Assembly (NCBI GenBank): GCA_029244985.1
Contig: JAQWQD010000017.1
Location: 124,001 to 188,000, forward strand
Reading direction: 5' to 3'
Origin: Gammaproteobacteria bacterium
GTDB lineage: Bacteria; Pseudomonadota; Gammaproteobacteria; Pseudomonadales; Pseudohongiellaceae
DNA: 64,000 bases
Shown: one piece after another, positions 39,912 to 44,957 of the stretch
Position numbering within the stretch: the stretch's first letter is position 1
Layout of the letters: each line of letters begins with the position of its first letter
Translations under genes and position numbers: made by a program
Notes under the pieces: model-generated
Told to the model about the DNA's origin: nothing
The model's database searches: none
The model's input: only the letters and a program-made list of their open reading frames with translations

Positions 39912-40739
39912 ATGACAGAATTAATCTCGGTAATAATACCTACCTATAATCGCGCCTATTGTCTCCCACGCGCTATCGACTCGGTACTAGCGCAATCTCA
40001 TCCGGTTGAAAAAATATGTGTTATCGACGATGGGTCTACTGACGACACTCGCCAGTTACTTCAATCAAACTACCCCCAAGTCCACTATATTCGACAGGAA
40101 AATAAAGGTGTTAGTGCTGCAAGGAATGAAGGTATTAGAAAGACCAAGAGTCAATGGATAGCATTCCTAGATTCTGATGATGAGTGGCTCCCCCAGAAGA
40201 TAGAGAAGCAGTTATTTGAGCTCACACGGCAACCAATGCACAAACTTATTCATTGTGATGAAGTATGGATACGGAATGGGGTTCGAGTTAACTCAATGAA
40301 TAAGCATAAAAAATCTGGTGGGAATATCTTTGAAAGCTGTTTACCTTTGTGTGTGATCTCCCCATCGGCTTCAATCATTCAAAGAGAGTTGTTACTTGAA
40401 GTTGGACTGTTTGATGAATCGCTCCCAGCCTGTGAGGACTATGATTTATGGTTGAGAATTTGCAGTCGCTATCCAGTACTATATATTAATGAAAAATTAT
40501 TACACAAATATGGTGGCCACGAAGACCAATTGTCTCGACAGCATTGGGGTATGGATCGATTTCGTGTTGATGCCCTTGATCGAATCATTCGAGGGGGCCT
40601 TTTGCGGCCAGGTCAAGTTAAAGCTGCGAGAGTTATTTTAACTAACAAATGCCAAATACTAATTAGTGGTGCAGGCAAGCGGGGGAATCAAGAATTGTTG
40701 GATAAGTATCAGGCGCTGCTATTAATGCATCAAGAGTAA
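39912..40739 (+). CDS. Family 2 glycosyltransferase
   Basis: The 275-residue cytosolic GT-A enzyme has ISVIIPTYNRAYCLPRAIDS, the VIDDGSTDDT nucleotide-binding motif, the metal-binding FLDSDDEW and CEDYDLWLRI toward the C-terminal acceptor part. It lacks membrane helices. It is two bases upstream of the nucleosidase-like gene, so it is co-transcribed with the radical SAM cassette. The acceptor is unknown. Confidence 0.88.
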   Translation: MTELISVIIPTYNRAYCLPRAIDSVLAQSHPVEKICVIDDGSTDDTRQLLQSNYPQVHYIRQENKGVSAARNEGIRKTKSQWIAFLDSDDEWLPQKIEKQLFELTRQPMHKLIHCDEVWIRNGVRVNSMNKHKKSGGNIFESCLPLCVISPSASIIQRELLLEVGLFDESLPACEDYDLWLRICSRYPVLYINEKLLHKYGGHEDQLSRQHWGMDRFRVDALDRIIRGGLLRPGQVKAARVILTNKCQILISGAGKRGNQELLDKYQALLLMHQE

Positions 40740-40741
40740 TT

Positions 40742-41596
40742 ATGGTGTCGCTCCAAAATATAAATCTTGTTTTTGCTCACAAATTTGAAGCCCAGGCTGC
40801 TCTTGACTTTTTCTCTCTAGAGATAGTAGATAATAGAGAGTTTAAGATTTATCAAAACTCAAGTGGTATGCAAGCTGTTGTCACTGGAATGGGTTTTGAA
40901 AATGCGAAGTCTGCGACTGCGAAGCTTGGCGAAAGAGCTTTGGAGATCGGGATGAAGAATGGTCTGAACATGGGGGTTGCGGCACGAGCTTGGTTAAATA
41001 TCGGCATTGGTGGTCATCCCGAAGCAGATATTGGCAGTGGTTTTCTAGCGAGCAAAATTATTCATCGAAACAGTGGCGATACTCAGTTCCCAGCACCTGT
41101 TCTTACTGGCGTAGAAAAGGCTGCAATAGTAACTGTTGACAAACCTGAGTTGGGGTATCCGGAAAATGCAGTTTACGAAATGGAAGCAGCAGGATTTTGG
41201 GCGTCAGCTATTGAGTACACTTCATTGGAGTTTGTACAGGTTTTAAAAATTGTCTCAGATAACAAAAAACAATCAATAGATACTGTTACAAAGGAATTAG
41301 TTGTAGATCTAATAAAGGAAAAATTAGAAACGATTAGCGATTGTTGTGCACAACTACAATCTCTTGTTAATGAGTATAACAATGCCTATAGTTTGGATGT
41401 CGCTAGCTTAGAGATAATAAAGTCTTGCCTAGAGTCATATCATTTTACAGTTACTCAAAAAATCCAATTAAAGAGATTGGTTCAGCGCTATTCCGCAATA
41501 CATCTATTCGCACAGCTGAGGAAAATAGTGGAGCTAACTTTTAGCAGTAGTAATGAATTAATTGGGGAATTAAGTAAGTATTTGTCTCGTCAATAA
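40742..41596 (+). CDS. MTA/SAH nucleosidase-like (PNP/UDP phosphorylase superfamily) protein
   Basis: The N-terminal ~185 residues are a nucleoside-phosphorylase fold. Glu16 (HKFEAQ), VVTGMGFENA, NIGIGGHPEADIG, VYEMEAAGFWASA (Met147, Glu148) and VSDN (Asp173) match the catalytic and ribose-binding residues of MTA/SAH nucleosidase. The last ~90 residues are a helical extension not found in Pfs, of unknown role. It lies in a tight cassette with a radical SAM enzyme, whose by-product 5'-deoxyadenosine is a known substrate of Pfs-type nucleosidases, so clearing it is a plausible job (inference). Confidence 0.75.
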   Translation: MVSLQNINLVFAHKFEAQAALDFFSLEIVDNREFKIYQNSSGMQAVVTGMGFENAKSATAKLGERALEIGMKNGLNMGVAARAWLNIGIGGHPEADIGSGFLASKIIHRNSGDTQFPAPVLTGVEKAAIVTVDKPELGYPENAVYEMEAAGFWASAIEYTSLEFVQVLKIVSDNKKQSIDTVTKELVVDLIKEKLETISDCCAQLQSLVNEYNNAYSLDVASLEIIKSCLESYHFTVTQKIQLKRLVQRYSAIHLFAQLRKIVELTFSSSNELIGELSKYLSRQ

Positions 41597-41647: not shown

Positions 41648-42628
41648 GTGTTTTCAGCAATTTATATAGAAGATGAAGTTAGAGAGCATGATCGAGTAAA
41701 AGAATTACTCGAACGGTTTTCTAGCATTCCACATATTGATTGTCAGCGTTATGGGGAAGTATTTAATCGTAAAGGCCAGAATTTTCGAATTCAAAAAAAA
41801 TCCCCTGCACTTATACTGGCAAAAAAGTACGGAAATCTAGTCTTACCTTCGCCCGACGGCTATGGCTTTGACGGGGGTAAGAGTTATTATTTTTCACATA
41901 TGCTTAACTGCATATACGACTGCCGATACTGTTTTCTGCAAGGCATGTATCGCTCTGCTAACTATGTTTTGTTTGTTAACTATGAAGACTTTGAATCCCA
42001 GATCACTGAATCGATTAAAGCTTCCGATGGGCCATCAATCTATTATAGTGGTTATGATTGTGACAGCTTAGCATTCGAGCCTGTTAGTAAATTTTGCGAC
42101 TACTTCCTGCCAGTGTTTTCAATACATACTTCTGCAGTATTGGAGATTAGGACTAAAAGTACACAGGTACGAAGTTTGTTAGATGTTAAACCATTGCCTA
42201 ACTGTATAGTTGCTATGAGCTTCACCTCTGATGGAGCTAGTTTGCGATATGAACATAAGGTTCCTACAATTCGGAAACGTATTGAGGTATTACAAAAATT
42301 ACAACAAGCTGGTTGGTTAGTTGCACTGCGCTTCGAACCTATCATCTGGGATTCAAATTTGTTAGAAAACTACCATAAATTATTCACAGAAATATTTCAT
42401 CGAATTGATATCGATTTTTTGCATTCGGCTAGCATCGGTGAATTTCGTATGCCAACTAGCTTTCATAAAAATATTGTAAAGCTCTATCCAGATGAAGAGC
42501 TGTTTGCGCGCGAAATACAAATTGATAATGGATTGGTGACGTTGATTGATAAAGAAGATTCATTGCGACAGTTAGAGCAGATTTTATTAAGATACATAAA
42601 GCCAGAACAGTATTATCGTTGCGCGTAA
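41648..42628 (+). CDS. Spore photoproduct lyase-like radical SAM protein
   Basis: The 326-residue protein starts at GTG 41648. The radical SAM cluster motif CIYDCRYC gives Cys88-x3-Cys92-x2-Cys95, the spacing used by spore photoproduct lyase (SPL). A further Cys138 in SGYDCDSLAFE lies 43 residues after the cluster, close to the H-donor Cys141 of Bacillus subtilis SPL, which is 44 after its last cluster Cys. Flanking SPL-like blocks are YGNLVLPSPDGYGF, FSHMLNC, LEIRTKST and ALRFEPIIWD. SPL repairs a thymine dimer in spores, but nothing here suggests sporulation, so it may repair another lesion or do different chemistry. Confidence 0.8.
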   Translation: MFSAIYIEDEVREHDRVKELLERFSSIPHIDCQRYGEVFNRKGQNFRIQKKSPALILAKKYGNLVLPSPDGYGFDGGKSYYFSHMLNCIYDCRYCFLQGMYRSANYVLFVNYEDFESQITESIKASDGPSIYYSGYDCDSLAFEPVSKFCDYFLPVFSIHTSAVLEIRTKSTQVRSLLDVKPLPNCIVAMSFTSDGASLRYEHKVPTIRKRIEVLQKLQQAGWLVALRFEPIIWDSNLLENYHKLFTEIFHRIDIDFLHSASIGEFRMPTSFHKNIVKLYPDEELFAREIQIDNGLVTLIDKEDSLRQLEQILLRYIKPEQYYRCA

Positions 42629-42706: not shown

Positions 42707-43426
42707 ATGAGTAATAATCCTAAAGGTTTGATTATAGTCAGCGGAGCATCTTCTGGAATTGGTAGAGCTATGTCTATGTCATTGTTGGCTACAGGATATT
42801 CGGTGCTAGGAATTGCAAAAAATTTTTCTCAGGAAAGAATAGAGCATAGGGAATTTAACTCTATAGAGATTGATTATTCTGACCTGGATAATCTCCCGGG
42901 TGAACTTGAGCGGGTTGTTAATTCGATTAATAACCCGATACGAGGCTTGGTTAATAATGCTGGAATTGGAAGGATGGCGTTTCTAGAACAGTTATCCGTA
43001 AAAGATATGCGGCTTGTAATGGAAACTAATTTTCTAAGTCATGCAATTACTACTAAAGTATTTTTGCCAATGCTAAAGCGACAACAACAATTAGTTGATA
43101 TCGTATTTACAGGTTCTGAAGCTGCGCTGGAAGGAGCAAGACAAGGTAGTATCTATTGTGCGAGCAAGTTCGCTGTGAGAGGTTTCGTTCAAGCTATTCG
43201 CGAAGAGTGTGCTAAAACTAGGGTACGGGTTTCAATTGTAAATCCTGGTGCAGTGCGAACTCCATTTTTCGATGATCTTCATTTCGAGCCAGGTAGTGCT
43301 TCCGAAAATGCTATTGAAGCTGATGACGTAGCGGAAGTTTTATTAACAATACTAAACGCTCGCCCAGGTACTGTAATCGATGAAATAAATTTGTCTCCTC
43401 AAACTCATGTTTGGAAGAGGAAGTAA
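42707..43426 (+). CDS. Short-chain dehydrogenase/reductase of the SPL-like cassette
   Basis: The 239-residue SDR has SGASSGIGRAM, NNAGIGRMA, Ser in VFTGSEAALEG (slightly atypical), catalytic YCASKFAVRGFVQ and the NPGAVRTPF motif. It lies 78 bp after the radical SAM gene on the same strand. It resembles the YdfG/YqjQ type acting on small hydroxy acids or alcohols. Its link to the radical SAM chemistry is by neighbourhood only. Confidence 0.85.
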   Translation: MSNNPKGLIIVSGASSGIGRAMSMSLLATGYSVLGIAKNFSQERIEHREFNSIEIDYSDLDNLPGELERVVNSINNPIRGLVNNAGIGRMAFLEQLSVKDMRLVMETNFLSHAITTKVFLPMLKRQQQLVDIVFTGSEAALEGARQGSIYCASKFAVRGFVQAIREECAKTRVRVSIVNPGAVRTPFFDDLHFEPGSASENAIEADDVAEVLLTILNARPGTVIDEINLSPQTHVWKRK

Positions 43427-43578: not shown

Positions 43579-43956
43579 ATGAAATTAACAAAAATCTTAA
43601 AACTTTCTCGGTCCGTTGCCTGCCTAGTTATATTGGCAACTCCGGTGCTTGTCAGTGCCCATACTGCTTTAAAAGAGTCGACGCCAGACGATGAGACGAC
43701 TGTTAAAGCCGCGCCAGGTCACATAGATTTAGTATTCAATGGTCCGGTTAAGCTAGTCAAGCTTGAGTTAATGGGCGTTGGTCATGAAATGCCAACTAAT
43801 TTTGAAGCTCAGACAGATGCAATTGCCACTTACCGTATCGAAACACCGGGGATGCACCCAGGTCAATTTACTGTGAATTGGGCTGCAATCGGTGCAGATG
43901 GTCACACAATAACTAATTCGTTTAGTTTCTTGGTAGATCCTGATGTCGCTGAATAG
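43579..43956 (+). CDS. copC: CopC-domain periplasmic copper-binding protein
   Basis: The 125-residue protein has a signal peptide cut before HTALKES, placing His at the mature N-terminus as in CopC. The mature beta-sandwich runs from STPDDETTVKAAP to WAAIGADGHTITNSFSFLV, and both Asp and His of the DGH copper(II) site are kept. A GAGG site precedes ATG 43579. copD follows 77 bp downstream. Together they carry copper across the periplasm to or through the inner membrane. Confidence 0.88.
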   Translation: MKLTKILKLSRSVACLVILATPVLVSAHTALKESTPDDETTVKAAPGHIDLVFNGPVKLVKLELMGVGHEMPTNFEAQTDAIATYRIETPGMHPGQFTVNWAAIGADGHTITNSFSFLVDPDVAE

Positions 43957-44033
43957 CACACAAAAAAACGACGTGGCCGTGGTTAAGAACACGGTTATTG
44001 TAATAATTAATAATTACTAGATAGACCCTGCAA

Positions 44034-44957
44034 ATGTTTATGCTCCCAACATCTTGGGAAATAGCTAGCCTTGTTTGTAAAATTTTATTCTATTTTGGGG
44101 CTGCCAGTGTTGTAGGCGGCAGTCTTTTTTTGCGGCTTTACAATGATGGTAGCCGTTTCACGGTCAAATCGAATATTCGTTATATTACTCTTGGTGCATT
44201 TATTGGTTTTCAAGGCGTCTTGTTTAACTACCTAGTGCAGATTGGATTAGTAGTTGATAGCGGATTTTTTGGTATGTTCGATTGGAGCATGGCATCTATA
44301 TTTTTGAACACCCAGGTAGGTGACATTACTTTTTTTCGAATGGCTGGCTTTGTGATTATTTTTTTCGCCTGCTTGTTTTACTCGCAACGCATTAGAAACT
44401 TAAACCGTCCGCCAAAGCAAGAACTCTATAAACTATTGAATATCATAACTTTGTTCGCATTTTTATTGATTATATTTAGTTTTCGATTTTCAGGGCATAT
44501 TTCTGTGTTAAGCCCAATTGCAAAAGTCGCTATAGCACTTCATTTTTTTTCCTTTGCAGCCTGGATAGGATCCCTTTATCCGCTCTATAAGCTGACTTTT
44601 GTGCGAGATCTGGATTTTATGTATCGCTCGATGAAAAAGTTTGGTAACAATGCTATAGCAATTGTTTTGGTATTAATCATTGCCGGGGTATTAATGTGCT
44701 TTGAATTGTTCCATTCGCTATCGGAATTGTTTACAACGGCTTATGGGCAAGCCTTACTCGTTAAACTTACTTTTGTACTGATGGTATTCGCCATTGCAGC
44801 ATTAAATAAGCTCAAGTTAACTCCTGACTTGCATAACGAAGGAGCGGTATTAACTTTGCGCAACTCGATTCGCTTAGAATCTGTCGTTGCCTTATTTATC
44901 TTAATCGTCACTTCTTATTTTTCAACTATAGTTGGCCCAGTCGATCATTCCATGTAA
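44034..44957 (+). CDS. copD: CopD-family inner-membrane copper protein
   Basis: The 307-residue protein has about eight membrane helices (LVCKILFYFGAASVVGGSLF, ITLGAFIGFQGVLFNYLVQI and others), with LHFFSFAAWIGSLYPL, the typical CopD His-containing helix, and ALLVKLTFVLMVFAIAALNK near the end. CopD is thought to import copper with CopC. It follows copC with a hairpin-bearing 77-bp gap (43977-43994, CCGTG / CACGG). Confidence 0.88.
   Translation: MFMLPTSWEIASLVCKILFYFGAASVVGGSLFLRLYNDGSRFTVKSNIRYITLGAFIGFQGVLFNYLVQIGLVVDSGFFGMFDWSMASIFLNTQVGDITFFRMAGFVIIFFACLFYSQRIRNLNRPPKQELYKLLNIITLFAFLLIIFSFRFSGHISVLSPIAKVAIALHFFSFAAWIGSLYPLYKLTFVRDLDFMYRSMKKFGNNAIAIVLVLIIAGVLMCFELFHSLSELFTTAYGQALLVKLTFVLMVFAIAALNKLKLTPDLHNEGAVLTLRNSIRLESVVALFILIVTSYFSTIVGPVDHSM

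Follow-up and report, generated by a model that had tools for sequence, protein, structure and literature searches.

A spore photoproduct lyase-fold radical SAM enzyme in a conserved four-gene set, possibly biosynthetic rather than a DNA-repair lyase

Does a radical SAM enzyme with the fold of spore photoproduct lyase (SPL), encoded in a non-sporeforming bacterium, repair DNA, or has the fold been put to other use? The question is raised by the gene at positions 41648-42628 of the window, by which we mean the whole 64,000-nucleotide stretch of gammaproteobacterial DNA that was analyzed. Among the best 120 of 5575 database matches, most of them unnamed, the names given to this family include "spore photoproduct lyase," "DNA photolyase," and "deoxyribodipyrimidine photo-lyase," and such names suggest repair of UV lesions. 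In the window, the SPL-like gene is the third of four, following a GT2 glycosyltransferase and a protein with the MTA/SAH-nucleosidase (MTAN) fold and preceding a short-chain reductase. The features referred to below are the following.

39912..40739, + strand: GT2-family glycosyltransferase, 275 amino acids, first of the conserved set (PF00535, 122.9 bits)
40742..41596, + strand: nucleosidase-like protein with the MTA/SAH-nucleosidase fold, 284 amino acids, with a helical C-terminal extension of ~75-90 residues
41648..42628, + strand: SPL-fold radical SAM enzyme, 326 amino acids, GTG start, with the Cys88/92/95 cluster motif, Tyr94, Phe96, Tyr136, and Cys138
42707..43426, + strand: short-chain dehydrogenase/reductase (SDR), 239 amino acids, last of the conserved set (PF00106, 129.3 bits)
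43579-44957: CopC and CopD copper genes, downstream of the gene set in close relatives

Results

Identity of the SPL-like protein

A sequence-only reading of this DNA had noted an open reading frame with Cys88-x3-Cys92-x2-Cys95 and Cys138 and had taken its product for an SPL-like radical SAM enzyme. These residues were found at those positions in a 326-codon open reading frame whose GTG start coincides, in the alignment, with the Met1 that most family members have, and the assignment was borne out by a match to the Pfam SPL domain PF20903 (45.4 bits, gathering score 27) and by the presence of the three cluster cysteines in 80/80 aligned sequences (the window plus 79 of the best 80 of 149 loci by similarity to the window; the over-long open reading frame of L041 was excluded). 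The motif and the domain match are not due to chance; the protein has the SPL fold and the PF20903 domain expected of SplB and is a genuine SPL-fold radical SAM enzyme. The nearest named record is that of OM182 bacterium MED-G28 (94% identity).

When the protein was scored against curated families, it reached 66.3 bits with the NCBIfam SPL equivalog TIGR04070 (cut-off 400 bits) and 39.3 bits with the wider SPL family TIGR03886 (lyase_spl_fam; cut-off 437.55 bits), homology to the latter being detectable in 42/42 members at E ≤ 0.001. A search of the window's own genome with TIGR03886 gave a single match, which did not exceed the cut-off. Because both scores lie below their cut-offs, we place the protein in the SPL superfamily but outside both curated families, and its membership in TIGR03886 was rejected.

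Residues at the SPL donor and relay positions

In SPL, the lesion gives up a hydrogen to the 5'-deoxyadenosyl radical and later receives one from Cys141 of the Bacillus subtilis enzyme (Bs; Cys140 in Gt numbering), and Tyr99 (Bs; Tyr98 Gt) relays the radical so that SAM is regenerated, with Tyr97 as an accessory residue (PMC5368176, PMC3742179). The Gt numbers Cys140 and Tyr98 are confirmed by PDB entry titles, and Cys141 is the donor number used for B. subtilis SPL (PMC5368176). The sequence-only reading had equated Cys138 with this donor. Its use of Cys141 as the B. subtilis donor was correct, but the cluster residues Cys90/94/97 that it quoted beside it are Geobacillus-type SPL numbers, where the donor is Cys140. 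Its spacings from the third cluster cysteine to the donor, 43 versus 44, are indeed nearly equal, with the difference arising from this mixed numbering; in one numbering (Gt), the spacing is 43 in SPL and 43 from Cys95 to Cys138.

Taken by itself, this equal spacing favors Cys138 as the donor equivalent, but the alignments are shifted by two residues. The match of the family profile to the PDB SPL sequence, a profile-profile comparison with hhalign, and a joint MAFFT alignment agree in pairing Cys140 with Tyr136 and Ser142 with Cys138, and the Asp that follows matches an Asp; the single-sequence phmmer match has the same register, with Cys138 opposite Ser142. The register departs from the raw spacing because of two one-residue gaps in between (hhalign, MAFFT). 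When residues were counted in the 80 aligned sequences and in a comparison set of 16 SPLs, the position of donor Cys140 (Gt)/Cys141 (Bs) was Cys in 16/16 SPLs and Tyr136 in 80/80 family sequences, and the position of relay residue Tyr98 (Gt)/Tyr99 (Bs) was Tyr in 16/16 SPLs and Phe96 in 80/80. The SAM-contacting Tyr96 (Gt)/Tyr97 (Bs), Tyr in 16/16 SPLs, was kept as Tyr94 in 80/80. The position aligned with Cys138 was Ser142 in 16/16 SPLs; in the family it was Cys in 78/80 and Ser in the two others, both from Nitrospirota (L031 and L033), which indicates that Cys138 is not strictly required. The proposed homology of Cys138 to SPL Cys140/141 is therefore weakened. From these alignments, we consider the two-residue offset likely, though not certain, and Cys138 could still face the active site.

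In the SPL mutants C141A and Y99F (Bs; the latter equals Y98F in Gt), the relay is expected to be broken, with 5'-deoxyadenosine formed in an amount equal to that of the product and one SAM spent per turnover (PMC3742179). Because the family carries natural changes at both relay positions, comparison with these mutants suggests that it probably consumes SAM. The same source describes SAM use as stoichiometric or nearly so in every SPL study but one (PMC3742179), and with such mixed data on SAM regeneration by SPL, loss of the relay may mean less than this comparison suggests.

The C-terminal segment aligned to SPL residues 289-313, which we take to be the lesion-flipping β-hairpin, is shorter in the family and is not basic, with a mean K+R count of 1.85 versus 7.1 in SPL and a mean net charge of -1.25 versus +5.1. 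A hairpin close to the SPL pocket has been described as helping to flip the lesion out of DNA (PMC6268316).

Two further cysteines are conserved in the 80 aligned sequences described above: Cys32 in 73/80, with Ile in 7/80, and Cys325, close to the C-terminal end, in 76/80. The idea that Cys32, Cys138, and Cys325 hold an auxiliary cluster was rejected, given Ile32 in those 7 sequences, Ser138 in 2/80, and the absence of Cys325 from 4/80. Three same-genus SPL-like genes (L171:2371-3573, L172:1177-2502, and L173:2231-3331) carry in-frame insertions of ~30-65 residues immediately ahead of the strand that runs into SGYDCDS, and two of these insertions have in common a CHSARSRRISSS...QDD stretch that resembles a translated dispersed repeat.

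Conservation of the gene set

Neighboring genes were compared across the best 80 of 149 loci by similarity to the window. A locus was counted for the nucleosidase if it had >900 bp upstream of the SPL-like gene, for the SDR if it had >750 bp downstream, and for GT2 if it had >2.2 kb upstream. Within this sample, the nucleosidase gene adjoins the SPL-like gene in 72 of the 75 loci (it is absent there in L031, L037, and L051), and in 67 of those 72 the two genes lie ≤20 bp apart or overlap, as judged from uncurated open reading frame starts. An SDR is adjacent downstream in 55/78 loci, and a GT2 gene lies ≤1.5 kb upstream in 51/67. As a control for relatedness, the loci were split at 57% identity, with the following results (closer loci, then loci below 57% identity; best 80 of 149 loci).

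Nucleosidase, adjacent: 26/26, 46/49
SDR, adjacent: 25/25, 30/53
GT2, within 1.5 kb: 22/22, 29/45
Acyl-CoA dehydrogenase, neighbor: 20/20, 1/39
CopC, neighbor: 24/24, 1/47
CopD, neighbor: 24/24, 1/45

CopC, CopD, and the acyl-CoA dehydrogenase were rejected as partners because they are nearly all gone outside the close relatives. Clustering of the neighbors revealed no further gene beyond the four that was conserved across distant loci, and a larger operon was likewise rejected, as phosphatases and aldo-keto reductases recur in small groups only.

In the part of this 80-locus sample that lies below 57% identity, an adjacent SDR is missing from 23/53 loci and a GT2 within 1.5 kb from 16/45. An aldo-keto reductase accounts for three of the missing SDRs, taking its place at L032:5996-6973 and L048:10993-11970 (Pfam) and at L060:10679-11839 (by similarity). 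When the genomes of nine loci with no adjacent GT2 were searched, five (L031, L037, L051, L052, and L072) were found to carry a full-length GT2 of the family elsewhere (351-449 bits), and the same search found no clear family GT2 in four (L033, L044, L054, and L073), which may be incomplete metagenome-assembled genomes (MAGs). In the L042 genome, the GT2 lies beside the operon. The Methylococcaceae locus L037 has the SPL-like and SDR genes, and a separate contig of its genome (L165) carries the GT2 and nucleosidase genes as a pair. In L031 and L051, there is no nucleosidase next to the SPL-like gene and none near their GT2. Separately, a DSP-type phosphatase gene was seen between the GT2 and nucleosidase genes at L040:4243-4698, L058:8726-9184, and L059:8732-9181, and another, at L035:8710-9186 (protein scanned), lies directly upstream of the nucleosidase. 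At L169:6762-8402, a family GT2 from Omnitrophica is fused to a HAD-type phosphatase domain, ~11 kb from the L052 SPL-like gene on the same contig.

The nucleosidase-like and SDR partners

The 284-amino acid protein encoded at 40742-41596 gave no named match in Pfam, but it has the MTAN fold. Its Glu16, Glu148, and Asp173 are invariant in 35/35 members and align with MTAN Glu12, Glu174, and Asp197, which we take to be the catalytic residues; the second aligned stretch is not significant by itself. The matches of the nucleosidase are to adenosine-type hydrolases. Among the members, the commonest match is to futalosine hydrolase (TIGR03664, MqnB), at E ≤ 1 for 32/35, with the window protein scoring 14.5 bits, below the cut-off of 124.7. 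Futalosine hydrolase acts after radical adenosylation by MqnE. Matches to the MTA/SAH nucleosidase TIGR01704 were found for 3/35 members at E ≤ 1 (best 6.2e-5), and the likeness to HpnG is weak (3/35 at E ≤ 1, best 0.071). A search of the window's own genome with TIGR01704 (cut-off 73.8 bits) gave no match at E 0.001. Residues ~210-284 form a conserved helical extension with an HFTVTQ..QL.RL pattern, and the MTAN matches listed stop by residue 213. In the SDR, Tyr150 and Lys154 are invariant in 27 aligned sequences, including that of the window.

Distribution

By record name, the distant loci come from Gammaproteobacteria, Nitrospirota, Omnitrophica, Planctomycetota, Neomarinimicrobiota, Thermoanaerobaculia, and others; because nearly all of these records are MAGs, single placements may be binning errors. 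In the window's own taxonomic family, 64/137 genomes match, so the distribution is patchy there too. Among 398 genomes drawn across the phylum, the sole full-length match was the window's own (536 bits), with the other 37 at E ≤ 0.001 scoring ≤57.5 bits, and a broad spread across the phylum was thereby rejected. In a class-level draw, 34/185 genomes matched TIGR04070, none above its cut-off, and 1/14 control genomes scored above it. Twelve loci were kept from this draw; ten of them belong to the SPL-like family of the window (476-547 bits), and a nucleosidase was found within a short stretch in 8 of these 10 (the exceptions being L105 and L113). Two other types of the SPL superfamily occur in the window's class (L102:1222-2343 and L112:970-2229), and their residues at the donor position differ (GTWELGDSLALEP and GTGQSSDSLMWG, respectively).

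Discussion

Our tentative answer to the question posed at the outset is that the 41648-42628 protein may be a radical SAM enzyme of the SPL fold that has been drawn into a biosynthetic pathway of four genes, comprising adenosylation, adenine removal, reduction, and glycosylation, rather than a DNA-repair lyase. Two clues agree on such an adenosylation pathway: the residues needed for SAM recycling are changed, and the SPL-like gene is paired almost constantly with a candidate adenosyl-cleaving enzyme. The scheme builds on the fold, cluster motif, changed relay residues, conserved gene set, and nucleosidase fold described above; the radical addition, the order of the steps, and the substrate are hypothetical, and the pathway is proposed by analogy with HpnH-HpnG and MqnE-MqnB. 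In this scheme, a [4Fe-4S] cluster on Cys88/92/95 would cleave SAM, and the 5'-deoxyadenosyl radical, not being recycled, would add to an unsaturated small substrate. The adduct radical would be quenched by Cys138 or another residue, and the coupled nucleosidase would then strip adenine from the adduct to leave a C-linked 5-substituted ribose. The ribose aldehyde would be reduced by the SDR (or the aldo-keto reductase), and GT2 would attach a sugar. The interchange of SDR and aldo-keto reductase in three loci suits a step on an aldehyde or ketone.

A more specific form of this proposal, which we consider less likely than not, is that the SPL fold, in origin that of a DNA-repair lyase that recycles SAM, has become a SAM-consuming adenosylating synthase. 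Together with the nucleosidase, a reductase, and a glycosyltransferase, it would produce a C-ribosyl- or ribityl-glycoside not described so far, in environmental bacteria from several phyla, as a further pathway of radical adenosylation and adenine removal beside those of hopanoids and futalosine. The open-access literature that we searched yielded no account of an operon of SPL-like, nucleosidase, and glycosyltransferase genes or of such a family. The SPL fold and the logic of pairing a radical SAM enzyme with a nucleosidase are already known, and as far as our searches show, it is their combination in this four-gene set that is undescribed.

The pairing with a nucleosidase could also reflect the clearing of a by-product. 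The SPL-like enzyme would abstract hydrogen from a small substrate with consumption of SAM, the nucleosidase would destroy inhibitory 5'-deoxyadenosine, and GT2 and the SDR would act on the radical SAM product and not on ribose. This explanation, which we regard as rather doubtful, draws on the same change in the SAM-recycling relay, on the adjacency of the nucleosidase in 72/75 of the best 80 of 149 loci, and on the failure of TIGR01704 to match the window's own genome at E 0.001. 5'-Deoxyadenosine, from which 5-deoxyribose arises, has been termed a toxic by-product of radical SAM enzymes (PMC6079011). Clearing of a by-product thus accounts for the pair of genes too, but it accounts less well for the SDR and GT2, and a dedicated, closely spaced nucleosidase gene suggests action on a pathway intermediate. 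Moreover, housekeeping nucleosidases or phosphorylases usually serve every radical SAM enzyme of a cell, and the window's genome encodes another PNP_UDP_1 protein (124.9 bits).

It is unlikely that a nucleotide, RNA, or a sugar bound to a carrier is what the enzyme modifies by hydrogen abstraction, with the operon making a modified nucleoside or glycoconjugate and the nucleosidase acting on that nucleoside. The ancestry shared with SPL (whose substrate is a thymine dimer), the nucleosidase fold, GT2, and the phosphatases of some loci (the DSP-type genes in L035, L040, L058, and L059 and the GT2-HAD fusion of L169) would all fit such a role, but the nucleosidase matches adenosine-type hydrolases, and the neighbor clustering gave no further gene conserved in distant loci. 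That the enzyme directly reverses, as SPL does, a thymine lesion caused by UV or desiccation in a cell that forms no spores, the role raised by the sequence-only reading, we consider very improbable: the SPL fold, the cluster motif, and the raw spacing of Cys138 fit it, at worst a conserved Cys lies two residues from the donor position, the donor can move (Clostridium SPL uses C74; PMC5368176), and SOS-linked SplB-like photolyases have been proposed (PMC3765255), but the relay Tyr and donor Cys are replaced in 80/80 of the aligned sequences described above, the segment aligned to SPL 289-313 is less basic than in SPL, and the conserved partners are GT2, a nucleosidase, and an SDR. Thus, the part of the sequence-only reading that concerned the SPL fold and cluster motif is upheld, SPL-type DNA repair by the 41648-42628 protein is unlikely, the protein is probably not an SPL, and the DNA-repair label on its family is probably wrong.

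If the proposed operon reading is true, the repair annotation is mistaken, and bacteria of the OM182, SAR86, and Nitrospira types make an unknown metabolite. The family would then be a natural example of a radical SAM enzyme whose SAM-regenerating relay is unlike that of its relatives and which has a nucleosidase of its own. Whether SAM is used catalytically or stoichiometrically in the SPL superfamily is debated, and a comparison of two natural families would make this testable.

Among known systems, one of the closest is SplB (TIGR04070; PDB entries 4FHC, 4FHD, 4FHF, and 4K9R), from which the window's family differs by the exchanges of Cys140 for Tyr136, Tyr98 for Phe96, and Ser142 for Cys138, by its shorter, non-basic C-terminal segment, by a score far below the equivalog cut-off, and by a context of GT2, nucleosidase, and SDR. 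The nucleosidase differs from MTAN (Pfs) in its helical C-terminal extension with the HFTVTQ..QL.RL pattern, in a genome with no TIGR01704 match at E 0.001. The proposed pathway resembles the MqnE-MqnB pair, in which adenosylation by a radical SAM enzyme is followed by futalosine hydrolase, a likeness that extends to the TIGR03664 matches of 32/35 nucleosidase members. The hopanoid pathway proper may be a poorer explanation: no squalene-hopene cyclase (TIGR01507) was matched in the window's own genome (95.7% complete), although the sensitivity of this search was low, as the control gave sub-cut-off matches alone (2/14 genomes). Hopanoid biosynthesis has a radical SAM-nucleosidase pair by which the adenosyl group becomes part of the product: diploptene accepts the radical through HpnH, adenine is then taken off by HpnG, and the enzyme that turns ribosylhopane into BHT is described as not yet established (PMC12583986). 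According to a cited title, a conserved Cys106 of HpnH reduces the radical intermediate, and this residue affects the outcome. The proposed pathway follows the logic of HpnH-HpnG, in which a radical SAM enzyme works with an adenine-removing enzyme before reduction and the action of a glycosyltransferase (PMC12583986); the two differ in that the radical SAM enzyme of the window is of the SPL type and its nucleosidase is weakly HpnG-like.
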